A stretch of 32,016 bases of DNA. Origin: Bacteroidales bacterium. Lineage in GTDB: Bacteria; Bacteroidota; Bacteroidia; Bacteroidales; WCHB1-69. The stretch lies in assembly GCA_017506175.1 (NCBI GenBank), contig JAFVNW010000072.1, positions 1 through 32,016 on the forward strand, written 5' to 3'. Of the stretch, positions 2,591 through 28,591 are shown piece after piece. The notes under the pieces were generated by a model, which ran no database searches, had not been told where the DNA came from, and saw only the letters and a list, made by a program, of their open reading frames with translations. A program made the translations under genes and the position numbers. Numbering within the stretch: the first letter of the stretch is position 1; every line of letters begins with the position of its first letter.

Positions 2591-3468
2591 CAAATAGATT
2601 GAAAGGCACGGGGGTGGCCCTGATTACTCCCTTTTTAAAAAATGGGCAGATAGATTTTGCTGCCCTTGAAAAACTGGTCGAAGACGAGATTCAAAACGGC
2701 ATCGATTATTTGGTGGCGTTGGGTACAACCAGCGAGTCCCCGGCGTTGTCGCAAAAGGAGAAAGAGGAGGTGGTGAGGACGGTCGTGGCAGTCAATGCTG
2801 GACGCGTGGCGGTGCTTCGCGGTCTCGGCGGCCCCAACACCCTCGAGCTGGTAGAGCAGCTTCACACGCTTGACTTCACCGGCGTGGATGCCATCTTGTC
2901 GGTAACACCCTACTACAACCGCCCTTCGCAAGAGGGCGTTTACCGTCATTACCATACACTCTCCGACCACTCTCCGCTCCCGATTATTTTGTACAATGTA
3001 CCCAAACGCACGGGTTGCAATATCGAAGCCGATACTACGCTGCGCTTGGCCAACGACTGCCCCAACATCATAGCGGTGAAGGAGGCTTCCGGCAACCTCA
3101 ACCAGATTATGCGCATCGTCAAGCACAAACCCGCCGAATTCTCCGTGATTTCCGGCGACGACGCCATCACCCTCCCGCTCATCGCCGCTGGTGCCGATGG
3201 ACTGATTTCCGTGGTGGCTAACGCCTTCCCGAAAGAGGTCAGCACGATGGTGCGCTTGGCCCGCCAAGACAAAATCGCTGAAGCCCGCGCCATCCACCTC
3301 GCCCTCCTCGACTTCACCCAAGCCTGTTTCAAAGAGGGAAGCCCCGCCGGCATCAAGGCCCTGATGTGGCTCCAAGGCAAAATCCAAAACCAACTCCGCC
3401 TGCCGCAAGCCCCCGTCTCCGAAACATTGGTTGAGAAGTTCAAACTTCTATTGGAAGATCGGCAATAA
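2587..3468 (+). CDS. dapA: 4-hydroxy-tetrahydrodipicolinate synthase
   Basis: Condenses pyruvate with aspartate semialdehyde, the first committed step of the lysine and diaminopimelate branch. The 293-residue length is typical. Visible motifs are GTTSE (46-50) for pyruvate binding, SVTPYYNRPSQEG around Y109-Y110, LYNVPKRTG with the catalytic Y136 and R141, and AVKEASG with the Schiff-base K165. The start overlaps the stop of the upstream DUF6913-like gene by 4 nt, so both are read from one transcript. It is followed by about 90 nt without a recognisable terminator. All key residues are present, so I expect an active enzyme. Confidence 0.97.
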   Translation: MTNRLKGTGVALITPFLKNGQIDFAALEKLVEDEIQNGIDYLVALGTTSESPALSQKEKEEVVRTVVAVNAGRVAVLRGLGGPNTLELVEQLHTLDFTGVDAILSVTPYYNRPSQEGVYRHYHTLSDHSPLPIILYNVPKRTGCNIEADTTLRLANDCPNIIAVKEASGNLNQIMRIVKHKPAEFSVISGDDAITLPLIAAGADGLISVVANAFPKEVSTMVRLARQDKIAEARAIHLALLDFTQACFKEGSPAGIKALMWLQGKIQNQLRLPQAPVSETLVEKFKLLLEDRQ

Positions 3469-13929: not shown

Positions 13930-16900
13930 ATGAAAAAGTTTTACACTTTTGGACCGCAAAAATTCCATTTTTTCAGTAAGATGAGGAATTTTCTTGCCAT
14001 GGCATTGATGCTGCTATTGGCGGTAGGTAATGTAAAAGCAGAGGAAGTTACAATCGTTTTCGGAGAGGGAACGGGAGAAATCCACGCTACTTCCGGCACG
14101 ATTAACGATTACCTTTCTTTTACCACTGCGAGGAACGGAGGATCTACTAATCCTGCATACAATGCTGCAAGCGAGGAATTACGTTTGTATTATTCTTCGA
14201 CAGGAAACGGTGGTAGCTTGACGCTGAATTGCTTGGGCGGCATTACAATTACTGGCATTGAAATTACCGCTTCAGGTTCAGCCTATACTCCAACTGTAAA
14301 ATATAAAGTAGATGGAGGAACAGCAGTGACCGCCACCCGTAGCGGCGTGGTGTATTCCATCTCTGGCGTCAGCGCCAACAGCACGCTGATGTTCCAAAAT
14401 GCAAATACCACGAACACGCAGCTTCGCATCAAGTCCATCAAGGTGGCTTACGACCTTCCTTGTCAAGAAGTGACGGAGTTGGTTTCCGAGAATGTTACGG
14501 CAACCGGTGCTGGTTTGAAGTGGAAAAGCAATGCCACCGACTTCATGGCCCAGCTTGACGGCACTGACATTTCCGGTTTCACTTTCGCTACCAGCGGCGA
14601 TTATAAAACCTACACCGCTGAAGGTCTGACTCCGAACGCCGAACATACTTTTGCTATCAAGGCCACTTGCGAAGCAGACTATCACACTGTAACTTTCACC
14701 ACCGAGTGCAATGAATATAACATTCCCGCTGAAGTAGCAACCATTCCTGAAGGAGAGACCTACACTTGGGGTGGGGAATCCTACACGGAGTCAGGCAACT
14801 ATGTGCAAACTCTCTATGATCAATACGGCTGCGACAGCGTTCTGACGCTGAACCTGACGGTGGTCTCCAATGTCTATACGATTACCCCCACCACTTGTAT
14901 GGGTTTCCCCTATACCAACCCTTACACCAACGAAGTGATGTATGATGGTTCCGATATTGATGATATTGTATATATAAATTATAGTGATACCCTTCCGAAT
15001 GCAGCTTTTGGTGGTACCATGGACAGCATTCGTGTTATCAATCTGACGGTTTCACCTGAGTATGTAGTAACCGACACGAGAGACATCTGCATCAATGAGC
15101 TCCCGTTTGACATTCAGAACTATCATTTCGAAGACCTGGAGGCTGGTACTTACGATTATAACCTCCACCTGATGTCGCAGTACGATTGCGATAGCACGGT
15201 GCGCTTCACACTGAATGTGCATCCTATGAGTGACATCACCGTGGATGCCACCTTCTGTTCTAACGAGTTGCCGGCTCATGTGGGTGAAATCGAGATTCCG
15301 GCGACTGCCACTACCGGCGTCATCACCCAAACCTTCGCGTCGGCTTTCGGTTGCGACAGTACCGTTCACGTGAACCTCACTGTTTACCAAGCCTATCCCG
15401 ATGAAGTGGTTGAGGAGACCGTCTGCGATAACGCGCTCCCCTATACTTGGAGAGGCCATACTTTCGCCGAAGCGGTTACCGATACCGTCTTCACGGAAAC
15501 GACAGTCAACGGTTGCGACAGCATCGTGACTTTCTCTTTGAGCGTGAACCCGACCTACAATGAAGAGGTTTCCGCCGTCACGATCTGCGCCAGCGAGCTC
15601 CCCTACGATTTCAGAGGCCACAGCTTGACGGAAGCCAATACCTACACCTATAATGAGACTACGGTAGCTGGCTGCGACAGCATTGTCACCTTCACATTGA
15701 ACGTGAACCCGACTTACAATGAAGAGGTTCCTGCCGTCACCATTTGCGACAGCGAACTTCCGTACAACTTCAGAGGCCACGAGCTGACCGAAGCTGATAC
15801 ATATATCTATAATGAGACGACAGTGAATGGCTGCGACAGCATCGTTACCTTCACGCTGAATGTAGCCCCCACCTATAACGAAACCATCGAAGAGACGATT
15901 TGCGACAGCGAGCTGCCTTACAACTTCAGAGGCCACAACTTGACTGAAGCAGGTACCTATACCTACAATGAGACGACAGCAAACGGCTGCGACAGCATCG
16001 TGACTTACACGTTGAATGTCAATCCGACTTATAACGAAACGGATGCCGTCGCCATCTGCGTCAATGAACTTCCTTATACCTACAACGCGGGCAACGGCCA
16101 TACCACCGTATTCCCCGTTGGAACGACTACCCAAGACACAGCCCTGGTTTATGCCACCGCTTTAGGATGCGATAGCGTAGTTAACTTGACTTTGACAGTC
16201 AATTCCACCGATATGTGTTCATTTGAGATCACGCTTGAGGCTGGTGAAAATGGAACCATCACAGGAGCAACTACCGTAAACCATGGTGCCAATGAAACCT
16301 ACACCATCACTCCTGCCAGCGATTGCTACTACATCTCCTCCCTCACTTTGGATGGAATCGAACAGACAATCACTACTCCTGAAGGAATGACGTTCAATCT
16401 GGACAGCATAGTTGCCCACCACACAATTGCAGCTTCTTTTGAAGTTTATACCTACACACTCACTTCAAGTGTTGACGGCGAAGGCACGATTACCGCAACT
16501 TCTGTTGTGGACTGCGGTAGCGACACCACTTTCGCCATCACTCCGGCCGATGGTTACCATCTCGACTCCGTTGTTGTTGACGGTGTTAACCAAGGTGTTA
16601 TCGACACCTACACCTTTACGAATGTACACGCCGATGGCAACATCATTGCTTATTTCAGCATTAATCATTATACCATTAATATGGTAGTGAATGGCGCAAA
16701 TGGAACGGTTGATCCCGTCGGTGATCTGGATGTCGTTTACGGTGCAACACCTGCTTACACTTTTGCGCCTGTAGCTTGCTATGAACTTTCCTCCTTGTTG
16801 GTTGACGGTGAAGAAGTGGTTGACGATGTAGTTGATAATGTCTATACCTTCCCCGCAGTCGATGCCAACCACTCAGCAGTGGCTACATTCGACCACATCA

Positions 16901-19900
16901 TGTATCCTATTACGGTTAATAACACGGGTAATGGTGTTGGCACAGTCAATGGCTTGACCGATTATCCTGTTGGCGACACCATCACTTCCGTTACCTGTGG
17001 TACTGCCTATTTCTTCAACATGATGGCTGGCGAAGGCTCACACATCTCCGACTTCACTTGGGGAGGTGGCACGATGTCTTTCGATGGTCAAAGCCAAAAG
17101 ACCTTCCAAATGTGGAACGGCAGTGCCAACGCTACCAACAACACCATCACCGTTACCTTCAACTTGGATACGATGTATGTTACTTCTACCGTCCAAGACA
17201 ACATTGGCGGTACGGTTGATCCTGCCAACGGTTGGATTGAGTATGGTCAGGATTTCACCCTTAACATCACTGCCGATGCTGCCAATGGCTATCATATCCA
17301 AACCATTACCACCGGCAGCAATGTAGTTACGTTGGGCAACAATGAAGATATAAACTACGCTTATGTTCTGCAAAATGTAACCTCCGACACTTCCATTGTC
17401 GTTGAATTTGCATTGAATACTTATGAAATCACGGTTAATGGCGTAGGCAATGGAACCATAGTTCCCGGTACTCTCCAAATCACTCATGGTGAGGATACTG
17501 CATGCACGTTTACTGCTGCCGATTGCTATTTCATTGATTCCGTTGTTGTTGATGGCGTTAATCAAGGAGCCATCGCTACCTATGCTTTCAATGATGTGGA
17601 TGCAAACCACACCGTGACCGCCTATTTCACCATCCAGAACTTCACGATGACGGGTATTGCCAACACGACTGACGGAACCGTCACCAGCGGTACTGCTGAT
17701 TGCGGCACCGATTATACATATAATATTGAGGCAACCACCGAAGGTTATCACATTGATCACCTTGAATTGGATGGCACGACTGTTGAAACCTATACTGCCA
17801 ATGAAACAACGGCAACCTATACGGTTTCAGATGTGCGCGACAATCACACTTTGGAGGCATTCTTTGCCATCAATGAATATCCTGTAACTGCTACGGCTAT
17901 CAATGGTATGGTTACTCCCGCTAATGCATCCGTTGCACACGGCGGTTCTCAAACCTTCACCTTGGTTCCCGATTTCTGTCAAGAACTGACCGCACTCACT
18001 GTCAATGGTGAGGATTATATGGCTAATACAACAGCCGTTCCAGCCAATGTTACTGAGGTATTTACCGAAGACTTTTCCAGTGTTACTGATGCAAGCACTA
18101 ACCAACAATGTGATGCTTCTACTACGGCATTCAATGCTGCTAGATTCAATGCACAGCTGCCCGGTTGGAGCGGAACGAATGTTTATGGTGCAAATGGAAA
18201 GGTTAAATTGAGCTCTGGCAGTGCGGCTGGTACTTTGACGAGAACCTTCGATTTGTCTGCTAATGGTGGTCACTATACCATTGAGTTTGATGCCAAGGCT
18301 TGGGCAAGAAACGGCGAGTCAACCACGATGGAAGTTGTTGTGGGCTCGGAAACTCATCAAGTAACTGGTTTGTCCACCGCCACGGGTTGTGAATTGTCAC
18401 ACTTTGTTGTTGAGGGCGATGGTGGTACAGCTTCTACTCAAGTCACCTTCCGAGGTATTGGTGCTAATTCCAGATTCTTCCTTGACAACATCACCATTTC
18501 TGTCGGGCTGCCTGCCAGCAATACGGTCACGGTTTCCAACATTACTGATACTACCGAGATTGAGGCTGTCTTCTCCCCGATTCAATATACTATGGACTAT
18601 ACCACCACTGGTGAAGGTACCGTTACTCCGGATGCAACGACTGCCGATTGCGGAAGCACCTTCACTTACCACATCGAGGCTGCTGAAGGCTGGCATATTG
18701 ACAACTACACGATTGGCGGAACTACGACTACTCTGGGTTCCAATGCCGATGTGACTGCCGATGTTGAAGTATTCGTGGAAAGCGACACTACACTTGATGT
18801 TGTATTCGCAATCAATGGCTATACGGTTACGGTTAACGCTACCACTGGTCAAGGTTCATTTGACAATGTTGCACAAAACAACACTTACGCAGTTGAACAT
18901 GGCGACAACCAAACCATCAACATTGCTGCCGACAGCGTCAATGGTTACCATATCGCGAGCATCACTTGCGGGTCCGACGAAGTTGAGTTGGGCAACAATA
19001 CTGATTTGACTTACGCTTATACAATTACTAACATCGTTTCCGATACGACTGTTGATGTTGAGTTCGCTCTGAATGAATATCCGATCACCGTTACCCTCGT
19101 GGGCAACGGTAGTGTGGCTCCTGCCACTCAGGATTGGGAATATGGTGACGATGCTACGTTCGTGATCGAACCGGCTGAAGAATGCTACTACATTGATTCT
19201 ATCATTGTTGACGGCTCAGAGGCTGTCATCACCAACGTACAAGGAATGAACTTCACAATCGCCAATGTGGTTGAGCCCCATACGTTGCATGTAGTGTTCG
19301 CCGATTCCGTATTCCAAATGACGAAACGTATCTACTATCCTTACATGGGTACTGTTTCCGAAGGTGAAGCACATTGCGGCGGCAGCTACGATTATGAAAT
19401 CCATGCCAACGAAGGTTATCACATTTCATCCATCTCTTTGGACTATGCTACCGAACCGGCTATCGACTCTCTGAGAATTGCCGATTCTGTTGTTACGGTT
19501 ACTGATATTCACGCTAATCACCACATGATTGTTGACTTCGCTTTGAATACTTATGATGTGACTGTAAGCGCCAACGAATTTGGTACTATCACTCCTGACG
19601 GCGATTTGACTCCTTCTCATGGCGATGTCCTCACATTCACTCTCGCAGCCATGAACCCCTGCCATGAGCTCGTCACTCTGACTTTGAATGATGAAGACGT
19701 TACCGACCAAATCGTAGCCGATCAGTTCACTTGGACTGCCGACACCGATGCAGTCATCGTTGCTACTTTCGCTCCTATCATGTATGCAATGGATGTGGTT
19801 TACGATCCTGCCAGCACTGGTCTGGGTACTGTAAACGCTGGTACGGTTGAATGCGACTCAACTTACCAATACAATATCGTAGCCAACCACGGCTCTCATA

Positions 19901-22900
19901 TCGAAAGCTACACTCTCAATGGTGTTACTACCACCTTGGGCACGAACGATGATACGCTCGCTACCGTTGATATCGTAGCTGCTTCTCAAGATACCACTTT
20001 GACGGTTCTCTTCGCCATCAACACCTACAATGTAACTCTCTGTACTTTGGATCCTGCCGAAGGTTCTATGACAGCTGTTACAGCCACTGCTACTTATGGC
20101 AATCCGTATGATGTAACCGTTCGCGCCAACTATGTCAACGGTTATCATATAGAGACCATCACTTGCGGCGACAGCGTAGCTACCTACGGTGCCAACATCG
20201 ATACCGTTATCAACTACACGATTAACAGCATTACCTCCGATACTACTGTATGTGCTACCTTTGAACTTAATGAATACACCATCACCGCTACTGCTGGTGA
20301 CAACGGTACTATCGAAGTTGCTGGTGAAAATACCATCGTTTGGGGCAGCGACACTTCATTTGTCATCACCCCGGCTGAATGCTACTACATTGATGTTGTA
20401 ACTGTTGACGGAACTGAGATTTCTGGTTACGATACGACCGGATTCACCTACCCATTCACCAATGTGGTTGACAATCACACCATCGATGTTCAATTCGCAA
20501 TCTACACTTACAATTTGGCTTCTACAGTCAATGACGCCACGATGGGCACGGTTACCAGCGATCCTGCTGTCAACTGCGGCGATGCTTACGACTATGTCAT
20601 CAATGCAGCCCACGGTTATCATATCGATTCCATCTATTTGGATGGTGCTATGAATCAATCATTCACCTATTCAGAAACCAACTATGACACCACTTATACC
20701 GTGACGATCAATCCGGTTGACGCCGATCACGTTTTGGACGCCTTCTTCTCCATCAACACCTATACGATGCATGCAGAGAATGGTGCCAACGGAACAATTG
20801 ATCCTGTAGGAGATTCCGTTTTGAACCACGGAGATACAATTGTTTACACCGTCACTCCGGATGATTGCTATTATATTAGCGAGGTGCTGGTTGACGATGT
20901 TGACGTTCTTGGTGACGACAGCACTGCTTTCACCTATACATTTGCAGATGTTCAAGCACCGCACGCCATCGTTGCCAACTTTGCCATCTATGAATATGAA
21001 ATGGCTGAAACGCACACTGGCAACGGTACGGTTACCACTGCTACTGTCAACTGCGGTGATACTTACACTTATACCATCACTGCAGACCAAGGCTGGCACA
21101 TTGAAGAATATACTATCGCGGGTACGACTGTTCATTTCGGTACCAATGATGACAATACGGCTACTTACGTCATTACTCCTGCCAGACAAGATACCAGCAT
21201 CGATGTCGTATTCGCCATCGATACATTGGATGTAACGGTTTGCACGGTAGATGGCGGTACTTTGGTTGCCAATCCTGCTGTTGTTGACTACGGTTCTTCT
21301 TGCGATGTTACCATCACCGCTGATACTGTCAACGGATACCACATCCAAACCATCACTTGTGGCAGCGACGTGGTTACCTTAGGTCAGAACAGCGACGTTG
21401 TTTATACTTATACTTTGAACAGTGTTACTTCCGACACCACCATTTGCGCGACCTTCGAACTCAACAACTACACGATCACTGCAACTGCCGATGCCAACTC
21501 GAACATCACTCCTGCAGGCGTTACCAATGTTCGTTACGGTGATACGTTGGCAATCACAATGACCTCCAACGTTCCTTGCTACTACATCACCAATTACGAA
21601 GTTGACGGTGTTGCTACCACTGTAAACGACAGTGTTGCTCAAACCTATACCTTCGAATTCATCACTGCTGACCACACCATCGACGTTTACTCAGCCATCT
21701 ATACTTACAACTTGGCTTCTACTGTAAATGATGCTACGATGGGTTCGGTTACCAGCGACGACAGCGTTGACTGCGGTACCGATTACAACTACTTAATCAC
21801 TGCCAACTATGGTTATCACCTCGAAGCCATCTACTTGGACGGCGTTCTTGATCAAACCTTCCCGTACAGCGAGACCCTCTACACCACCGCATTCACTCGT
21901 ACCGTTACGAATGTGATGGCTGATCATCAATTAGATGCTGTATTCGCCATCAATACCTACACGATCGATGTGACCGTTGGTGCTAATGGCTCGGTTGAAC
22001 CTGGTGACGATGTTACATTGAACCACGGTGACAATGCAACCTTCGTTGTTACTCCGGATCCTTGCTACTACATCAGCGAAGTACTGGTTGACGGTACGGA
22101 TGTTCTCGGTGCAGACAGCACGACATTCACCCATACCTTCACCAATGTTGTCGCTCCTCATACTTTTGAAGCCAACTTCGCAATCTATGAATATGAGATG
22201 ACTGAAACGCACACAGGTATGGGTACGGTTTCCACAGCTACTGTAAACTGCGGTGACGACTACACCTATATGATTGATGCTGATACTGCTAATGGTTATC
22301 ATATCGAATCAGTTACCTTCAACGGTGTTACCACGACCTATGGCAACAACGAAGACATTCACGCTGAACAATTGGTTGAAGCTGTAAGCCAAGATACTAC
22401 GATTGATGTTGTATTCGCTATCAATACTTACAGCATCGATGTAACCGTCAATGGTAACGGCACAACCACTCCTGGCGACACTGCCGGTATCATTTGGGAC
22501 ACCAATGTTGATTACACGATTACTGCCGAACACGGTTACCACATCGCAAGCGTTCTGGCTGACGGTGTGAACGTATTCACTCCGAGTAGCGATCCTAACA
22601 TCGATAGCCTCTTCAACTACTCATTCACGAACATTCGTGAAAATCACACCTTAGTTGTGAACTTCGCCACCAATATCTACACTATCATCGCTTCTGCCGA
22701 TAGTGAAGGCACTATCGTTATGCCGGGTGAAAACCACGTGGCTTATAACAACAACATCGACTTCACCATCACTGCAAATGGTTGCTACCACATCAGTGCA
22801 ATCCTAATTGACGGTGTAGAGTCAGTTATTTTCGATGACAACACCAGCTACTATGTTTTCACATTTGAAAATGTAGAAGCTGACCACACCATCCACGCCA

Positions 22901-25041
22901 CCTTCGCTATCAACACTTACACTATCCACGCTGCTGCTGGTGCCAACGGTACCATCACGCCTGCTGGTGACACTACGGTTGATTGCGGTGCCAATGTGGT
23001 TTACACCTTCACTCCGGATGCTGGCTACGCTATCGAAGGTGTGGTTGTAAACGGTAACAATATCGGTGCTCCGACTACCTACACGGTTACTGACATCCAC
23101 AGTGATTACGACATTATGGTTACCTTCACCGATATCAACTACACGTTGACCTCATCTTCCTTCGGTCACGGAACCATTACTCCTGAAGGCACTGTGGTAG
23201 TTGCTGAAAACGGTACTCAGGTTTACACCCTTGTTCCGGATGATTGCTACACCGTTAGCGAAGTTCTGGTTGACGGCGTTTCCTACCTGAACGAACTTGA
23301 AGACAACACCCTGACTTTGGACAGCATCCAGTCTGATATGAACATCCAGGCTTACTTCCAAATTAAGACCTACAATGTTACGACGACTGCTGCTGAAGGT
23401 GGTTTCATCACTGAAGGCGGTGTTGTGAACTGTGGTTCCGATGTTGAACTCACCATCACGGCTGATGCATGCCACAACATTGATTCTGTGGTTGTAAACG
23501 GTGTCAATGCTGGCGCAGTTGAAACCTACACCATCTCCGCTATCGATACCGACTACACAGTAGCCGCTTACTTCTCCATCAAGACCTACACCATCACCTC
23601 TTCCGTAAATGATACTGTAATGGGTACGATTACCGCTTCCGACACCTTCGACTGCGGTGAAACCCCGACCTACGAAATCACTCCTAATGATGGCTACTAC
23701 ATTGTTGATGTTACTGTTGACGGTGTATCTCAAGGCATTATCACTTCTTACACCTTCGGTTCTTTGGATGCTGATCACACCATTGATGCTGAATTCGCTA
23801 TGTACACTTACACGTTGACCGCTACTGCTAACGTAGGCGTTACCTCAACACCTGCTCTCGGCGACACCGTGGTTGATTACAATGCAAGTGTTACTTACAC
23901 GTTCACTGTTGACTCTTGCTACGAAATCGCCGATGTTTTGGTTGACGGAGTTTCAATGGGTGCAATTACTACCTACACCTTCGATAGCATCACTGCCGAC
24001 CACATCATCGCAGTTAATGCTGTAGTGAAGACCTACACCATCACCTCTTCTGTAAGTGATGTTCTCGGTGGTACTGTTACTCCTCTCGGTGAAACCACTG
24101 TTAACTGCGGCGGTTCTCAAAACTACACCGTAACGGTTAACGCGGGCTATGTAATTGAAGACGTTCTCGTCAATGGTACTTCAGTGGGCGTTGTTAGCAG
24201 CTACTTCTTCGAAAATGTAACCGGCGACTCCACCATCGAAGTTGTCTTCCACGCTCTCGAAGTTGATACATTCCAAATCGTTGCTTCCGTACGCAGCGGC
24301 AATGGTACTATCAATCCTGCTGGCATCATCAACGTTGCTCGCGGCGCAAGCCAGACCTTCACGATGATTCCGGACGAATTCTACAGAGTATTCGAAGTAT
24401 ATGTTGACGGCGTTCCCGCTACCACCTCCAACACCTATACCTTCGGTAACGTTTCCGCTAACCACACCATTGAAGTTGTATTCGTTCCTGCCACCTGTCC
24501 GGTTCCGACCTATGCTTGGACTGAAGACATCGACTATACGAGCGCAACTCTGAACTGGACCGACATGAATGTCACTTCCTACACTGTACGTTACAAGAAG
24601 GCTTCTGACACCAGCGACTTCATCGAGGTTACCGGTATTACCGACAACTTCTATGAACTGAGCGGTCTCGATATGAATACTGACTACATCTGGAATGTCA
24701 AGTCCGTATGCATCGCTGACGAAGCTGAAAGCAACTGGAGTTCACAACAAACCTTCAGAACGCTTGAAGATATTAGCTCAGACACCACTGGTATCTACGA
24801 AATGACTCTCGGCGAGATGAACGTTTACAGCTACGGCAACGACATCTACGTGGTTAATAACGCTCAAGAACAAATCAAGGACATCCAAGTTTACGATTTG
24901 ATGGGTCGCGTAGTATTTGCCGGCAAGGCTCAGAGCAACCCGCAAGTAATCAACGTCAACGCCGCCAACGGCACCTACGTTGTGAGAGTTGTTACTGAAA
25001 ATGCAATCCGCAATTACAAGGTCAGCATTTCTCAAAGATAA
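13930..25041 (+). CDS. Giant 3703-residue T9SS surface protein with 33 divergent InlB-type repeats
   Basis: An unbroken 11.1-kb frame. Residues 1-37 form an extended signal peptide; M19 is an alternative start. Residues 38-177 form a beta-rich domain and 178-260 a short Fn3-like domain. Residues 261-762 hold nine 'ELPY.FRGH...GCDSIVTFTLNVNPTYN' repeats of about 55 residues. Residues 763-3522 hold 33 divergent InlB B-repeat-like domains (about 79 residues each, pattern YTIT...NGTI.P.G...YHI..V.VDG...YTF..V..NHTI...FAINTY). Repeat 8 is split by a domain at about 1378-1526. An Fn3 domain starts at C3523, and a T9SS type A sorting domain covers the last 80 residues. No catalytic domain is visible. 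I infer a long surface stalk or adhesin. The array has almost no Lys or Arg and often one Cys per domain. Confidence 0.92.
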   Translation: MKKFYTFGPQKFHFFSKMRNFLAMALMLLLAVGNVKAEEVTIVFGEGTGEIHATSGTINDYLSFTTARNGGSTNPAYNAASEELRLYYSSTGNGGSLTLNCLGGITITGIEITASGSAYTPTVKYKVDGGTAVTATRSGVVYSISGVSANSTLMFQNANTTNTQLRIKSIKVAYDLPCQEVTELVSENVTATGAGLKWKSNATDFMAQLDGTDISGFTFATSGDYKTYTAEGLTPNAEHTFAIKATCEADYHTVTFTTECNEYNIPAEVATIPEGETYTWGGESYTESGNYVQTLYDQYGCDSVLTLNLTVVSNVYTITPTTCMGFPYTNPYTNEVMYDGSDIDDIVYINYSDTLPNAAFGGTMDSIRVINLTVSPEYVVTDTRDICINELPFDIQNYHFEDLEAGTYDYNLHLMSQYDCDSTVRFTLNVHPMSDITVDATFCSNELPAHVGEIEIPATATTGVITQTFASAFGCDSTVHVNLTVYQAYPDEVVEETVCDNALPYTWRGHTFAEAVTDTVFTETTVNGCDSIVTFSLSVNPTYNEEVSAVTICASELPYDFRGHSLTEANTYTYNETTVAGCDSIVTFTLNVNPTYNEEVPAVTICDSELPYNFRGHELTEADTYIYNETTVNGCDSIVTFTLNVAPTYNETIEETICDSELPYNFRGHNLTEAGTYTYNETTANGCDSIVTYTLNVNPTYNETDAVAICVNELPYTYNAGNGHTTVFPVGTTTQDTALVYATALGCDSVVNLTLTVNSTDMCSFEITLEAGENGTITGATTVNHGANETYTITPASDCYYISSLTLDGIEQTITTPEGMTFNLDSIVAHHTIAASFEVYTYTLTSSVDGEGTITATSVVDCGSDTTFAITPADGYHLDSVVVDGVNQGVIDTYTFTNVHADGNIIAYFSINHYTINMVVNGANGTVDPVGDLDVVYGATPAYTFAPVACYELSSLLVDGEEVVDDVVDNVYTFPAVDANHSAVATFDHIMYPITVNNTGNGVGTVNGLTDYPVGDTITSVTCGTAYFFNMMAGEGSHISDFTWGGGTMSFDGQSQKTFQMWNGSANATNNTITVTFNLDTMYVTSTVQDNIGGTVDPANGWIEYGQDFTLNITADAANGYHIQTITTGSNVVTLGNNEDINYAYVLQNVTSDTSIVVEFALNTYEITVNGVGNGTIVPGTLQITHGEDTACTFTAADCYFIDSVVVDGVNQGAIATYAFNDVDANHTVTAYFTIQNFTMTGIANTTDGTVTSGTADCGTDYTYNIEATTEGYHIDHLELDGTTVETYTANETTATYTVSDVRDNHTLEAFFAINEYPVTATAINGMVTPANASVAHGGSQTFTLVPDFCQELTALTVNGEDYMANTTAVPANVTEVFTEDFSSVTDASTNQQCDASTTAFNAARFNAQLPGWSGTNVYGANGKVKLSSGSAAGTLTRTFDLSANGGHYTIEFDAKAWARNGESTTMEVVVGSETHQVTGLSTATGCELSHFVVEGDGGTASTQVTFRGIGANSRFFLDNITISVGLPASNTVTVSNITDTTEIEAVFSPIQYTMDYTTTGEGTVTPDATTADCGSTFTYHIEAAEGWHIDNYTIGGTTTTLGSNADVTADVEVFVESDTTLDVVFAINGYTVTVNATTGQGSFDNVAQNNTYAVEHGDNQTINIAADSVNGYHIASITCGSDEVELGNNTDLTYAYTITNIVSDTTVDVEFALNEYPITVTLVGNGSVAPATQDWEYGDDATFVIEPAEECYYIDSIIVDGSEAVITNVQGMNFTIANVVEPHTLHVVFADSVFQMTKRIYYPYMGTVSEGEAHCGGSYDYEIHANEGYHISSISLDYATEPAIDSLRIADSVVTVTDIHANHHMIVDFALNTYDVTVSANEFGTITPDGDLTPSHGDVLTFTLAAMNPCHELVTLTLNDEDVTDQIVADQFTWTADTDAVIVATFAPIMYAMDVVYDPASTGLGTVNAGTVECDSTYQYNIVANHGSHIESYTLNGVTTTLGTNDDTLATVDIVAASQDTTLTVLFAINTYNVTLCTLDPAEGSMTAVTATATYGNPYDVTVRANYVNGYHIETITCGDSVATYGANIDTVINYTINSITSDTTVCATFELNEYTITATAGDNGTIEVAGENTIVWGSDTSFVITPAECYYIDVVTVDGTEISGYDTTGFTYPFTNVVDNHTIDVQFAIYTYNLASTVNDATMGTVTSDPAVNCGDAYDYVINAAHGYHIDSIYLDGAMNQSFTYSETNYDTTYTVTINPVDADHVLDAFFSINTYTMHAENGANGTIDPVGDSVLNHGDTIVYTVTPDDCYYISEVLVDDVDVLGDDSTAFTYTFADVQAPHAIVANFAIYEYEMAETHTGNGTVTTATVNCGDTYTYTITADQGWHIEEYTIAGTTVHFGTNDDNTATYVITPARQDTSIDVVFAIDTLDVTVCTVDGGTLVANPAVVDYGSSCDVTITADTVNGYHIQTITCGSDVVTLGQNSDVVYTYTLNSVTSDTTICATFELNNYTITATADANSNITPAGVTNVRYGDTLAITMTSNVPCYYITNYEVDGVATTVNDSVAQTYTFEFITADHTIDVYSAIYTYNLASTVNDATMGSVTSDDSVDCGTDYNYLITANYGYHLEAIYLDGVLDQTFPYSETLYTTAFTRTVTNVMADHQLDAVFAINTYTIDVTVGANGSVEPGDDVTLNHGDNATFVVTPDPCYYISEVLVDGTDVLGADSTTFTHTFTNVVAPHTFEANFAIYEYEMTETHTGMGTVSTATVNCGDDYTYMIDADTANGYHIESVTFNGVTTTYGNNEDIHAEQLVEAVSQDTTIDVVFAINTYSIDVTVNGNGTTTPGDTAGIIWDTNVDYTITAEHGYHIASVLADGVNVFTPSSDPNIDSLFNYSFTNIRENHTLVVNFATNIYTIIASADSEGTIVMPGENHVAYNNNIDFTITANGCYHISAILIDGVESVIFDDNTSYYVFTFENVEADHTIHATFAINTYTIHAAAGANGTITPAGDTTVDCGANVVYTFTPDAGYAIEGVVVNGNNIGAPTTYTVTDIHSDYDIMVTFTDINYTLTSSSFGHGTITPEGTVVVAENGTQVYTLVPDDCYTVSEVLVDGVSYLNELEDNTLTLDSIQSDMNIQAYFQIKTYNVTTTAAEGGFITEGGVVNCGSDVELTITADACHNIDSVVVNGVNAGAVETYTISAIDTDYTVAAYFSIKTYTITSSVNDTVMGTITASDTFDCGETPTYEITPNDGYYIVDVTVDGVSQGIITSYTFGSLDADHTIDAEFAMYTYTLTATANVGVTSTPALGDTVVDYNASVTYTFTVDSCYEIADVLVDGVSMGAITTYTFDSITADHIIAVNAVVKTYTITSSVSDVLGGTVTPLGETTVNCGGSQNYTVTVNAGYVIEDVLVNGTSVGVVSSYFFENVTGDSTIEVVFHALEVDTFQIVASVRSGNGTINPAGIINVARGASQTFTMIPDEFYRVFEVYVDGVPATTSNTYTFGNVSANHTIEVVFVPATCPVPTYAWTEDIDYTSATLNWTDMNVTSYTVRYKKASDTSDFIEVTGITDNFYELSGLDMNTDYIWNVKSVCIADEAESNWSSQQTFRTLEDISSDTTGIYEMTLGEMNVYSYGNDIYVVNNAQEQIKDIQVYDLMGRVVFAGKAQSNPQVINVNAANGTYVVRVVTENAIRNYKVSISQR
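14710..16215 (+). repeat. Nine GCDS-type coding repeats
   Basis: Residues 261-762 of the giant protein. Units 5-8 are the most alike: each has [CA][ND][SN]?ELPY, FRGH or WRGH, a threonine/tyrosine strand, NGCDSIVTF and NPTYNE. Units 1-4 and 9 are diverged. The same type of unit occurs in the M14 peptidase (about 576-790). It is a beta-rich spacer module frequent in Bacteroidales surface proteins; its structure and binding role are not established here. Confidence 0.85.
16216..24495 (+). repeat. Array of 33 divergent InlB-type coding repeats with five-domain superperiod
   Basis: Residues 763-3522. Between repeats 4 and 28 the domains fall into five classes in fixed order. Class A has HIE.YT..GTTT..G.N; class B has VNGYHI.TITCGS; class C has CYYID...VDG; class D has GYHI..I.LDG; class E has C.ELVTL or CYYISEVLVD. 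Class A starts are residues 992, 1553, 1952, 2356 and 2755. The spacings are 561 (includes the inserted domain), 399, 404 and 399 residues. The last two full cycles are about 80% identical in DNA where sampled. Confidence 0.85.
18061..18507 (+). other. Domain inserted in repeat 8 of the giant protein
   Basis: Residues 1378-1526, about 149 aa, unlike the flanking repeats. It starts FTEDFSSVTDAST, contains LPGWSGTNVYGANGKVKLSS and FDLSANGGHYTIEFDAKAW, and ends SRFFLDNITISVG. Order and motifs suggest a carbohydrate-binding-like or jelly-roll beta-sandwich of the type found in secreted Bacteroidota proteins; this is inference. It has a normal Lys and Arg content, unlike the array. It separates the VNGEDYM strand of the repeat from its NTVTVSNITDTTEIEAVF closing strand. 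Confidence 0.7.
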
Positions 25042-25387: not shown

Positions 25388-28300
25388 ATGAAGAAGTTTT
25401 TATTCTTAAGCCTGTTGCTTTTCTGTACATTGGCAGGAATTGCTCAAAGTCAGCAAGTAACATTGAAATTTATGGGGCAAAGTACTGACAGCGTTCGTAT
25501 CCAGATGGAGTATGTGGAGGTGAAAAACTTGTCAAGCGATTCAACGCTTTGGGTTGACAGTCTGGTTTTAGCGTGGCCTGATACGACACTGACCATGACC
25601 ACGCAGGATTCAGTGACCTCAGTACATGATTATGTAGCGGCTGAGGGTTTCGCTTTCACGCATACGGGTCCGAACCCGTTCAACGGCCAGACTGAGGTGG
25701 CGTTGCAGCTCCCGGAGAACGGTGATGTGCTGTTAAGAGTTTACGAACTGACGGGCAAAGAAGTGGCTGCTTTCAGCGGCAGTTTCCCGCAGGGGGTACA
25801 TCGTTTCCAAGTCAATGTCGCCCAGACACAAACTTATCTTGTTGTGGCACAATGCGGCACAAAACGAGCCAGTATCAAGTTGGTGAACGCTGGCCACGGT
25901 CACGGAAACAGGATCGCCTACCTCGGCTTGGCTTTTGGCGGTATGATTTCTCCCAAGATGGAGATGGAAAATGCCTTTCATTACGGCGACACGCTGATGT
26001 GCGCAGGTTATGTGCATTTTGGGGATTCGTTGTATGCCAGCGACACGGTTCTGTTGTTTATGGATCCATTGCAGGACTCTCTTCAAAACGTGGTACTGAC
26101 TTTCCCAGTGTCTCTGCCTTCGGTAGTGACTTGGATTCCTGATACTATCACTGATCATTCTGCTTATGTAGGAGGAACCGTCATCAATGATGGTGGTATT
26201 TTGGTAGGCGAGAGGGGTATCGTGTGGGCTACCCATCCCAATGTGACACTTGAGGACAACCGCATTCCCCTTGGCGACACACTGATTGCAGCTTCCGACA
26301 CGCTCTGGGGCATTCCCGGTGATTTTTCTACCGCATTGGATGCGCTCCAACCCAACACACCCTGCTTCGTACGCGCCTATGCGATGACGGGGTTCGGTCT
26401 GAGCTTCGGACAGGAATATGTCTTCGTCACCATTTCGCAGCTGCGTGACAACCAACCTTGCTCTGTGGCCAATGTGACGGATGCTGATGGCAATGTATAT
26501 GCTACCGTGCGTATTGGCCGTCAGTGCTGGACCCGCGAAAACCTCCGCACCACTCGCTACAACGATTCCGTGTCTGTCACCAATGTGAACGATTTGGAAG
26601 ACATGTATATCTATCATATAGACTCTCTTTTCGAGACACCTGATACCGTTTTCACATACGATACGACGATTATGATCGATAGCATCATCATCCCATACGA
26701 CACGGCTTACAATTCCTATTTTGATACGACGGTGTATATCCATCATCAGAACGATGTCTATTTGTTTGGAGAAATGTCTGTTGATGTTTTTGTGGATCAG
26801 AAGGATACTCTTTATAGCGCAGAGAGAGTGGATAGTCTCGTACAATATTTCATACCGATTACATTAGTCGATTCTGTGAATCAATCGTTTGTCGTTTATG
26901 ATCAGGCTGTCGTTGTGAACCAGCAGATACCAGCATCGGTTGAGGTCTTTATCAATGTACTGACAGACAGCACAGATATGGACAGTCTGGTTTATCAATA
27001 TGATACGGTAACAGTATTTAGTTATACTGATTCAGTAGCTCATAATGATACTATTGCATTGATTGACAGTCTTATACCCTATTTCAACTTGGACACTGTC
27101 ACGCATATTGCTTATCAGGGGAACATTTTGGTGGATGGTATCAGTAATTTTGATGTGAAGGTGGATATTACGGTCAGCCAGATTGACACGATTATCACCC
27201 GTCATTCCGACACATTGGCCCTGATTGACCATATCACCACCACGTACATCTCCACTCATAACGGCTATGTGCCTCATCACGACACTACTTTCGTCTATGA
27301 GGTGGTGTGGCCTGCCGACACTCTTTATGATACCCTTGTGAGCGTGGTGGACACCACCGTCAACTTCCTGTTCTCAGGCTTGGACACCACTGCCATCGAC
27401 ACCATCACGATCTATTCCGACACTATCGCGTACTGTTACTACCCTGACAGCACGGCGGTGCTGGCGGATGTGTATGGTTTGTTATACAACTATCGTGCAG
27501 CTTCTGGTGAATCTGAACGCTCTATTGCAGAACCCTCTGGTATCCGTGGCATCTGTCCGGAAGGATGGCATGTTCCCAGCATCGGTGAATGGGAACAACT
27601 CACTGGATATTTGGAAGGTCAAAGCACCTACCATGCCGGTGGCATCAGTACCAACATTGCCAAGGCATTAGCTTCCACCGACAATTGGCAACAGGACACC
27701 ACCTATACTTATTCGATTGGCAATGCACCGGAAAACAACAATGCCACTGGCTTTGCAGCTATGCCTGCCGGAGCTTATTCTGACAGCACAGGAGCTTATA
27801 CACGCTTCTGGAGCTGCTCTGGCGAACAGCCCACGGACATCGATGTTATTGGTCTTGGTTACGACTTGCCCATCGTTACTTTTGACATGCTGGCTCCTGA
27901 TTCCGTTGCCTCCGTGCGTTGCGTGCGTGATGATGAGGAAACTGCCGATGGTTTCGCTTGCCCTGGCATGCCCACAGTGACGGATGCGGACGGCAATGTG
28001 TATAACACGGTTCAGGTGGGCAGCCAGTGCTGGATGAAGGAAAACCTCCGCACTACTCGTTACCCTGACAATGCCATCCTTACTGAAGGTACTGAATTGT
28101 CGGACTCCATTGCCTATTACTATCTGCCCTCAACGGAAGAAAGTGAGATTGCACTCTATGGTGTATTGTATAATTGGACTGCGGCGGTGGCTGGAAGTGC
28201 ACAGGGCATCTGTCCTATCGGATGGCATGTTCCTACTGCTGATGAATGGATGGAATTGCATCGCTATGTCGCCTCGAAGTCCGAGTACCTTTGCGGTTCG

Positions 28301-28591
28301 GGTTCCAACAGCATCAGCAAGGCACTCGCGAGCAATTACGGATGGCGTCCATCCATCTCTTCATGCGATACGGGCGATACCACAACGGTTCATAATGCCA
28401 CGGGTTTCAGCGCACTGCCGACAGGTCGCTATCCCGACAACCACATCGGCGTTAATGCATACTTTTGGACATCCACAGAAGTGAGCAATGCCAATGCTAC
28501 GGTGAGATATCTGAACTATTCAACCTCCAACTTCTCAGAAGGTAGCATACGAAAAGAGTATGCAGCTTCTGTTCGTTGCTTAAAGGACTAA
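25388..28591 (+). CDS. Secreted protein with two FISUMP domains and an internal sorting-like domain
   Basis: 1067 residues with signal peptide MKKFLFLSLLLFCTLAGIAQ. Residues about 86-180 resemble a T9SS sorting domain (GPNPFNGQTEVALQLPENG; VYELTGKEVA; FPQGVHRFQVNV; RASIKLVNAG) but near the N-terminus. Residues about 246-348 form an Fn3-like domain (GGTVINDGGILVGERGIVW; LQPNTPCFVRAYAMTG). FISUMP domain 1 begins at 358 (CSVANVTDADGNVYATVRIG; QCWTRENLRTTRY) and resumes at 678 after an insertion of about 270 residues; FISUMP 2 spans 858-1067. Both carry GICP.GWHVP and end SVRC(V/L)(R/K)D. FISUMP domains are common in Fibrobacter and Bacteroidota surface proteins; their function is unknown. There is no C-terminal sorting domain. 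Confidence 0.88.
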   Translation: MKKFLFLSLLLFCTLAGIAQSQQVTLKFMGQSTDSVRIQMEYVEVKNLSSDSTLWVDSLVLAWPDTTLTMTTQDSVTSVHDYVAAEGFAFTHTGPNPFNGQTEVALQLPENGDVLLRVYELTGKEVAAFSGSFPQGVHRFQVNVAQTQTYLVVAQCGTKRASIKLVNAGHGHGNRIAYLGLAFGGMISPKMEMENAFHYGDTLMCAGYVHFGDSLYASDTVLLFMDPLQDSLQNVVLTFPVSLPSVVTWIPDTITDHSAYVGGTVINDGGILVGERGIVWATHPNVTLEDNRIPLGDTLIAASDTLWGIPGDFSTALDALQPNTPCFVRAYAMTGFGLSFGQEYVFVTISQLRDNQPCSVANVTDADGNVYATVRIGRQCWTRENLRTTRYNDSVSVTNVNDLEDMYIYHIDSLFETPDTVFTYDTTIMIDSIIIPYDTAYNSYFDTTVYIHHQNDVYLFGEMSVDVFVDQKDTLYSAERVDSLVQYFIPITLVDSVNQSFVVYDQAVVVNQQIPASVEVFINVLTDSTDMDSLVYQYDTVTVFSYTDSVAHNDTIALIDSLIPYFNLDTVTHIAYQGNILVDGISNFDVKVDITVSQIDTIITRHSDTLALIDHITTTYISTHNGYVPHHDTTFVYEVVWPADTLYDTLVSVVDTTVNFLFSGLDTTAIDTITIYSDTIAYCYYPDSTAVLADVYGLLYNYRAASGESERSIAEPSGIRGICPEGWHVPSIGEWEQLTGYLEGQSTYHAGGISTNIAKALASTDNWQQDTTYTYSIGNAPENNNATGFAAMPAGAYSDSTGAYTRFWSCSGEQPTDIDVIGLGYDLPIVTFDMLAPDSVASVRCVRDDEETADGFACPGMPTVTDADGNVYNTVQVGSQCWMKENLRTTRYPDNAILTEGTELSDSIAYYYLPSTEESEIALYGVLYNWTAAVAGSAQGICPIGWHVPTADEWMELHRYVASKSEYLCGSGSNSISKALASNYGWRPSISSCDTGDTTTVHNATGFSALPTGRYPDNHIGVNAYFWTSTEVSNANATVRYLNYSTSNFSEGSIRKEYAASVRCLKD

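Follow-up and report, generated by a model that had tools for sequence, protein, structure and literature searches.

The B repeat of Listeria InlB is related in name to the domains considered here. It is described as having a beta-grasp-like fold that is rigid within itself and flexibly attached to the preceding internalin domain through a short, pivot-like linker (PMC8900821). The giant protein presented below resembles it in its related name and domain size; however, InlB has a single repeat placed after a leucine-rich domain, whereas 33 domains stand in tandem here, and disulfides are not mentioned in the passages of the InlB account used here (PMC8900821). Fibrillar adhesins, too, carry their tandem domains as a long stalk at the surface of the cell, and the terms Flg_new, InlB, disulf and cystein do not occur in the main text describing them (PMC8286594). 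The extender domains of RTX adhesins are alike in that rigidified linkers between tandem domains extend the protein, but they use calcium (PMC7493085), whereas the giant protein has apparent cysteine pairs, other domains and another export route. Disulfides outside the cytoplasm are also described in bacteria with a type IX secretion system (T9SS), where a cysteine of PorG is essential in the anaerobic P. gingivalis (PMC12635249); the disulfides of the secretion and gliding machinery join parts of the machine, while the putative ones considered below would lie between exported repeat domains.

The window, that is, the whole stretch of 32,016 nucleotides that was analysed (contig JAFVNW010000072.1 of the Bacteroidales assembly GCA_017506175.1), encodes the giant protein whose features are collected in Table 1. 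Its array consists of 33 divergent InlB-B-repeat-like domains, R1 to R33, at aa 764-3522 (nt 16219-24495), which bears out the number of repeats counted in an earlier, sequence-only reading of this DNA. Regarding its family, the protein scores 123 bits with PF18998 (Flg_new_2, divergent InlB B-repeat) against a cut-off of 23.6 and is thus a member; in the genome search, the model matched eight places within the giant ORF at E <= 0.001, five of them over the cut-off. The C-terminal sorting domain is the one expected of type A T9SS cargo, and the 33 tandem domains are those expected of a fibrillar-adhesin stalk. No adhesive head was found in the giant protein, as aa 1-764 matched no Pfam family even at E 1. 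The PF09479 model had no match anywhere, its controls being equally silent, which makes this search uninformative, and sequence searches of the PDB returned nothing convincing (best E 0.1 in one search, and 0.17 for the repeats when the profile was used).

Preceding the array there is a distinct tandem repeat of about 53 aa (nt 15499-16038; more widely, aa about 260-763), having a period of 159 nt, 3.4 copies, a match of 77% and two cysteines per copy (IC..ELPY, GCDS). In another protein (L158), a domain of this 53-aa type stands directly after a domain with a C-site cysteine, as defined below. The insert in R8 has no convincing match in Pfam; its stretch matches ORFs about 600 aa long in congeners and in genome G031, and the ortholog of G010 (L040) has no gap at its place. 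Directly downstream of the giant gene, at 25388-28591 of the window, a protein of 1067 aa carries a FISUMP domain and a long Asp/Thr/Ser-rich middle, and other window genes with T9SS tails encode an M14 peptidase and an endonuclease I.

Table 1. Features of the giant protein, in positions of the window. Domain letters: C, cysteine at the C-site; N, cysteine at the N-site; B, both; o, neither.
Feature	Position (nt)	Strand	Basis and cysteines
Giant surface protein, T9SS cargo	13930..25041	+	ORF and translation, 3703 aa; sorting domain
Block 1, R1-R5, C N C N o	16219..17421	+	Cys pairs aa 799-862, 950-1023
Block 2, R6-R10, C N C N o, R8 insert inside	17422..19077	+	Cys pairs aa 1199-1258, 1350-1574
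Insert in R8, ~151 aa	18061..18513	+	Repeat boundaries; splits R8
Block 3, R11-R15, C N C N o	19078..20274	+	Cys pairs aa 1752-1816, 1911-1975; R15 own Cys 2038, 2108
Block 4, R16-R20, C N C N o	20275..21468	+	Cys pairs aa 2151-2216, 2313-2375; R20 own Cys 2438, 2506
Block 5, R21-R25, C N C N o	21469..22677	+	Cys pairs aa 2550-2615, 2712-2774
Array tail, R26-R33, C N C B N C N o	22678..24495	+	Cys pairs aa 2952-3019, 3106-3168, 3181-3242, 3330-3393
Fibronectin III-like domain, weak	24526..24741	+	20.8 bits, below cut-off 25
T9SS type A sorting domain	24844..25026	+	TIGR04183, 31.2 bits vs cut-off 23

A cysteine rule between neighbouring domains

Most cysteines of the array fall on two states of the domain profile: the N-site, at state 22 (VNCG), just before the central strand, and the C-site, at state 35 (DECYHI), just after it. 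Their placement follows one rule: the C-site of a domain carries a cysteine exactly when the N-site of the following domain carries one. The window protein reads C N C N o five times and then C N C B N C N o, its five-domain unit being two paired dyads, C-N and C-N, and a spacer. The array holds 39 cysteines; assigned by the repeat boundaries, 28 of them make 14 such pairs, two lie in the R8 insert and nine are extra, of which the spacers R15 and R20 have seven and R10 and R6 one each. R6, R10 and R15 each retain a cysteine without a partner, which speaks against a complete pairing. The same two sites are found in a paralog of 2982 aa that is cut by the contig end (L031:2347-11292, on G000:C23), with another plan of four cysteine-free domains, long runs of B domains and then alternating C and N domains; relatives of this paralog in congeners (L043, L044 and L046-L049) share that plan.

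Adjacent domains were tabulated as pairs with both cysteines, the C-site alone, the N-site alone, or neither. Across 83 proteins with 956 domains, the 831 adjacent pairs gave 371/0/0/460 for an exact C-site that was chosen after the exceptions had been seen, and a looser site window of one residue gave 320/5/0/413, with 5 one-sided pairs in 738; partner-site cysteines always occur together by the exact site, as expected of tandem domains linked across their boundaries. The first set, comprising 38 ORFs with at least two repeats from 42 sources (the window and L031-L071), had given 307/1/0/321 under the first definition, its single exception having the cysteine shifted by one profile state. Within this set, no association was seen between the cysteines of the same domain or of next-but-one domains; one did appear when the order of the neighbours was reversed, which runs and alternating domains would by themselves bring about. 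These counts alone would be compatible with cysteines that pair between chains, tying fibres sideways, but such a link would not require the next domain as partner, and the rule is strictly i to i+1 and free of the other two associations in the first set; this reading is therefore very improbable.

A second set, of 40 regions from other genera and families, gave 63/2/0/139, having been selected with the C-N profile, which favours the cysteine pair; its same-domain and next-but-one tables were weakly associated, with odds of 2.6 and 2.7. Paired boundaries altogether occur in 39 proteins from 37 sources, which belong to a single order and, within it, to three families and five genera. In addition, mutual information over 738 adjacent pairs of 80 proteins gave a z of 32.5 for state 35 and state 22 of the next domain, whereas the second of the 5329 pairs reached a z of 7.7, so that this is the strongest inter-domain coupling.

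It could be argued that the pattern is a by-product of copying two- or five-domain units, whose cysteines would be inherited together and have no joint function, given that blocks and dyads have been duplicated and that many of the counted pairs are related by descent. However, B domains give runs of many lengths. Of the 186 complete C B* N runs, 156 are dyads, and the longer ones comprise three (12 runs), four (2), five (4), six (2), seven (1), eight (3), twelve (3), thirteen (2) or fourteen domains (1); wherever a run is seen whole, it opens with C and closes with N. Such a range is not made by a fixed inherited dyad, whereas a rule that acts at each boundary can make it. Among disjoint nearest contrasts, boundaries at least 50% identical changed at both sites in 35 of 35 cases. 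Under the looser window, cluster representatives still gave 212/5/0/239 at 60% identity, 164/4/0/183 at 50% and 85/3/0/100 at 40% (188 pairs), and copying without joint function is thus held to be quite improbable.

As for the exceptions, none of the five one-sided pairs of the looser window has a cysteine at state 35; four read GC among otherwise cysteine-free neighbours, while for the fifth (L115_+6788) a genuine lone C-site, a little off register, is possible. Further, letters without a partner occur in 43 array segments, where an array is interrupted, ends or meets the edge of its contig. Within the main genus, the interruptions are explained by a divergent domain with the expected cysteine, by the R8 insert or by contig edges. 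Three arrays (L115, L117 and L120) begin with an N domain that follows a leucine-rich-repeat-like stretch having its own cysteine shortly before, in VW(T/I)PC, which is possibly a partner from outside the domain family. Five arrays outside the genus (L059, L123, L125, L134 and L146) start with an N or a B domain and have no clear partner domain, being possible exceptions to the rule at array starts.

The spacer, or fifth, domain often has its own cysteines on the first and last strands: in 25 aligned blocks, 12 spacers have both, 2 the first only, none the last only and 11 neither, the two exceptions having a cysteine two residues away. Over all domains of the pair set, this association is looser (13/12/2/849). 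A second cysteine pair inside the spacers is apparent from these alignments, but little is made of it here. When Block 4 was aligned with the 24 other blocks, the four cysteines of its two dyads were invariant.

Five-domain blocks and their age

The sequence-only reading had proposed that class-specific motifs return every fifth domain from about R4 to R28. A check of pairwise identities among the 33 repeats confirms this periodicity, with a mean identity at lag 5 of 0.399 vs a permutation mean of 0.295 (z 7.7, 0/2000 permutations); lag 10 reached z 4.0 and lag 15 z 3.2 (4/2000 permutations), and no other lag from 1 to 15 exceeded z 1. The lag-5 signal persisted at z 7.1 when both cysteine columns and two columns on either side were masked, and at z 4.4 (0/2000) when the permutation was made within cysteine types, lag 10 then falling to z 1.4. 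Since it survives both treatments, it indicates a block ancestry beyond the cysteines. The proposed range did not hold as well as the period, as the stretch of highest lag-5 identity runs from R8 to R24 and not up to R28. Several late pairs are low, namely R20-R25 (0.25, rank 20), R22-R27 (0.28, rank 16) and R23-R28 (0.29, rank 21), with higher values for R21-R26 (0.40, rank 5) and R27-R32 (0.42, rank 2), and the pairs R2-R7, R3-R8 and R6-R11, with ranks 14, 17 and 13, show a weak signal in the first two blocks as well. The cysteine pattern itself has an exact period of five from R1 through R25, a domain whose sequence is not of class B.

Two motif pairs lie 1197 nt apart exactly as had been read from the DNA, YNLASTVNDATMG at aa 2194 and 2593 (nt 20509 and 21706) and YEM[AT]ETHTG at aa 2356 and 2755 (nt 20995 and 22192). 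The spacing of class A domains had been put at 399-404 residues; the step from 992 to 1553 measures 561 residues, or about 410 without the insert of ~151 residues, slightly outside that interval.

The same five blocks are present in five of the six orthologs with fully readable arrays (L036, L037, L039, L040 and L041), the sixth (L042, from G008) having a shorter array with fewer domains. The first C-N dyad is absent in L036, L037 and L039, and the profile does not recognise the fourth domain of these three and of L041, which has diverged too far and falls in a gap, its cysteine being in place. In a further ortholog (L038, from G007), the detected array starts at the equivalent of R8, and the ORF runs off the contig. 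Misassembly as the source of the block boundaries is unlikely, because separately assembled congeners keep the same order.

The blocks had also been read as the outcome of growth by duplication, most recent at 19500-22900, and lag-5 identity could indeed be taken for recent growth of the gene by 1.2-kb duplications, the more so as the tree described below joins R17 and R22 of the window protein as a sister pair (support 0.965). The best lag-5 pairs, R17-R22, R18-R23 and R19-R24, have however only 65-66% DNA identity and 61-63% protein identity, and 46-55% of the codons of their conserved residues (R17-R19 vs R22-R24) are identical vs 42% expected from codon usage. Their synonymous positions are near saturation and the duplications are old, and the same blocks recur in five of the six readable orthologs, so that recent growth has a very small probability. 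The 19500-22900 region is therefore the most recent in relative terms only.

A tree of 175 domains, from 25 positions (R9-R33) in seven species, shows that the domain classes recur in the orthologs of all seven. Class A (R9/14/19/24) forms one clade with 28/28 domains (support 0.77), and class B (R10/15/20) another with 21/21 (support 0.86). For class D (R12/17/22), 16/21 domains are in the clade, and classes C and E are intermixed (8/21 and 11/21) but jointly complete at 42/42 (support 0.77). Single positions are monophyletic in 10 of 25 cases (R11, R13 and R26-R33), so that each position of the tail R26-R33 is monophyletic across the seven species and the rest of the periodic part is mixed. 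In the periodic part, the best match of an ortholog keeps its position in 84 of 150 comparisons, indicating a poor position-by-position orthology, and the mean identity is 0.464 for the same position in orthologs vs 0.490 for the best paralog inside the window protein. Because six of the seven within-species sister pairs lie five positions apart, the tree supports a probable later, lineage-specific exchange or re-duplication at lag 5, although the R18/R23 sister pair of the window protein has a support of only 0.34. The duplication reading was thus right in kind: growth by five-domain blocks stands as an ancestral process, seen in the class clades and in the permutation within cysteine types, and not as a recent one.

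As to their origin, the blocks would have arisen by an old five-domain duplication, followed by partial homogenisation through lag-5 exchange, and the cysteine pattern would have been kept because a lone cysteine is not tolerated. The repeated structural super-unit that had been predicted for the stalk seems to exist in an unforeseen form, as a block marked by cysteines that co-occur across domain boundaries. It is the rule of cysteine placement that says what the five-domain unit is, and this is more important than the duplication story.

Putative linkage of the stalk and reach of the rule

The placement of the cysteines suggests a fibrous stalk, exported by the T9SS, whose neighbouring domains are joined at chosen boundaries by putative interdomain disulfides, which we consider probable. 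The disulfides reported from other T9SS bacteria, an anaerobe among them (PMC12635249), are in keeping with this. The C-site cysteine of domain i would pair with the N-site cysteine of domain i+1. As the two sites flank the same strand, they would be at opposite poles of the domain, which suits a head-to-tail stacking. Four kinds of domain would then be distinguished, C starting a run, B continuing it, N ending it and o being free, and arrays would read (o | C B* N)*. The counts and the tree show that the cysteines co-occur, in which direction they do so and that the classes recur; we infer that the pairs are disulfides formed within one chain, which would stiffen the stalk, and that lone cysteines are selected against. 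A bond across a boundary would remove the freedom that a pivot-like linker gives, so C-N boundaries would be locked and the others would act as hinges. The window protein, with two locked dyads and a spacer, would thus have short rigid segments parted by hinges, and the paralog on G000:C23, with its long locked runs, would form longer rods.

Two known oxidases that a disulfide-linked tandem protein might call for, VKOR and DsbB, were not found in the lineage, as their models each matched none of the 13 congeneric genomes, 7 of which are at least 90% complete. Among the controls, the two models matched 3 and 6 of 14 genomes, respectively, and the VKOR model matched 9 of the 149 genomes of the order. 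These missing matches count against the disulfides and, in bacteria that are probably anaerobic, would favour another explanation, in which the paired cysteines bind a metal or cofactor lying between the domains or take part in other two-thiol chemistry. Against a metal site, however, no column of H, C or D/E beyond the pair shows strong enrichment at paired boundaries (largest difference 0.16), and a metal would be poorly held by just two thiols. We give metal, cofactor or other thiol chemistry little probability and prefer interdomain disulfides. A further proposal is that cysteines at two positions per domain, following (o | C B* N)*, set which boundaries of the giant fibre are locked and which are hinges, in locked runs of 2 to 14 domains, and that a lineage in which VKOR and DsbB were not found uses another oxidant for its cell-surface disulfides; taken as a whole, this proposal is tentative and stands slightly below an even chance.

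Through the cysteine rule, a vague higher-order repeat becomes a readable code, and the probably locked boundaries can be predicted from the sequence alone. With it, one can test directly how the stiffness of very long surface proteins is set by bacteria; it also provides two-domain modules for building rigid rods, and it raises the question of how cargo is oxidised in these T9SS bacteria without the usual membrane oxidases. No account of such a rule was found among the results listed by a search of a literature collection with few subscription papers.

Regarding its reach, 40 regions picked from the best PF18998 matches in the phylum contained 57 profile-recognised domains, none with a C-site cysteine and one with an N-site cysteine; the 18 ORFs with at least two domains gave 0/0/0/32, which neither supports nor breaks the rule. 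Nine remote named relatives contributed seven ORFs with 1/0/0/22, that is, one paired boundary of 23; among these relatives is L158, where the domain after a C-site belongs to another type. Because the phylum sample has no C-site cysteines and the remote relatives have a single paired boundary, the rule is confined to a subset of the PF18998 family. A second subfamily, marked by GYxFxxW, gave 3/0/0/89 in 43 ORFs, all three pairs being in one protein. This protein (L034:3060-5342, on G000:C54) has 760 aa and a T9SS tail, and its four GYxFxxW domains read C B B N, so that, judging from these letters, the same rule appears to operate in another subfamily.
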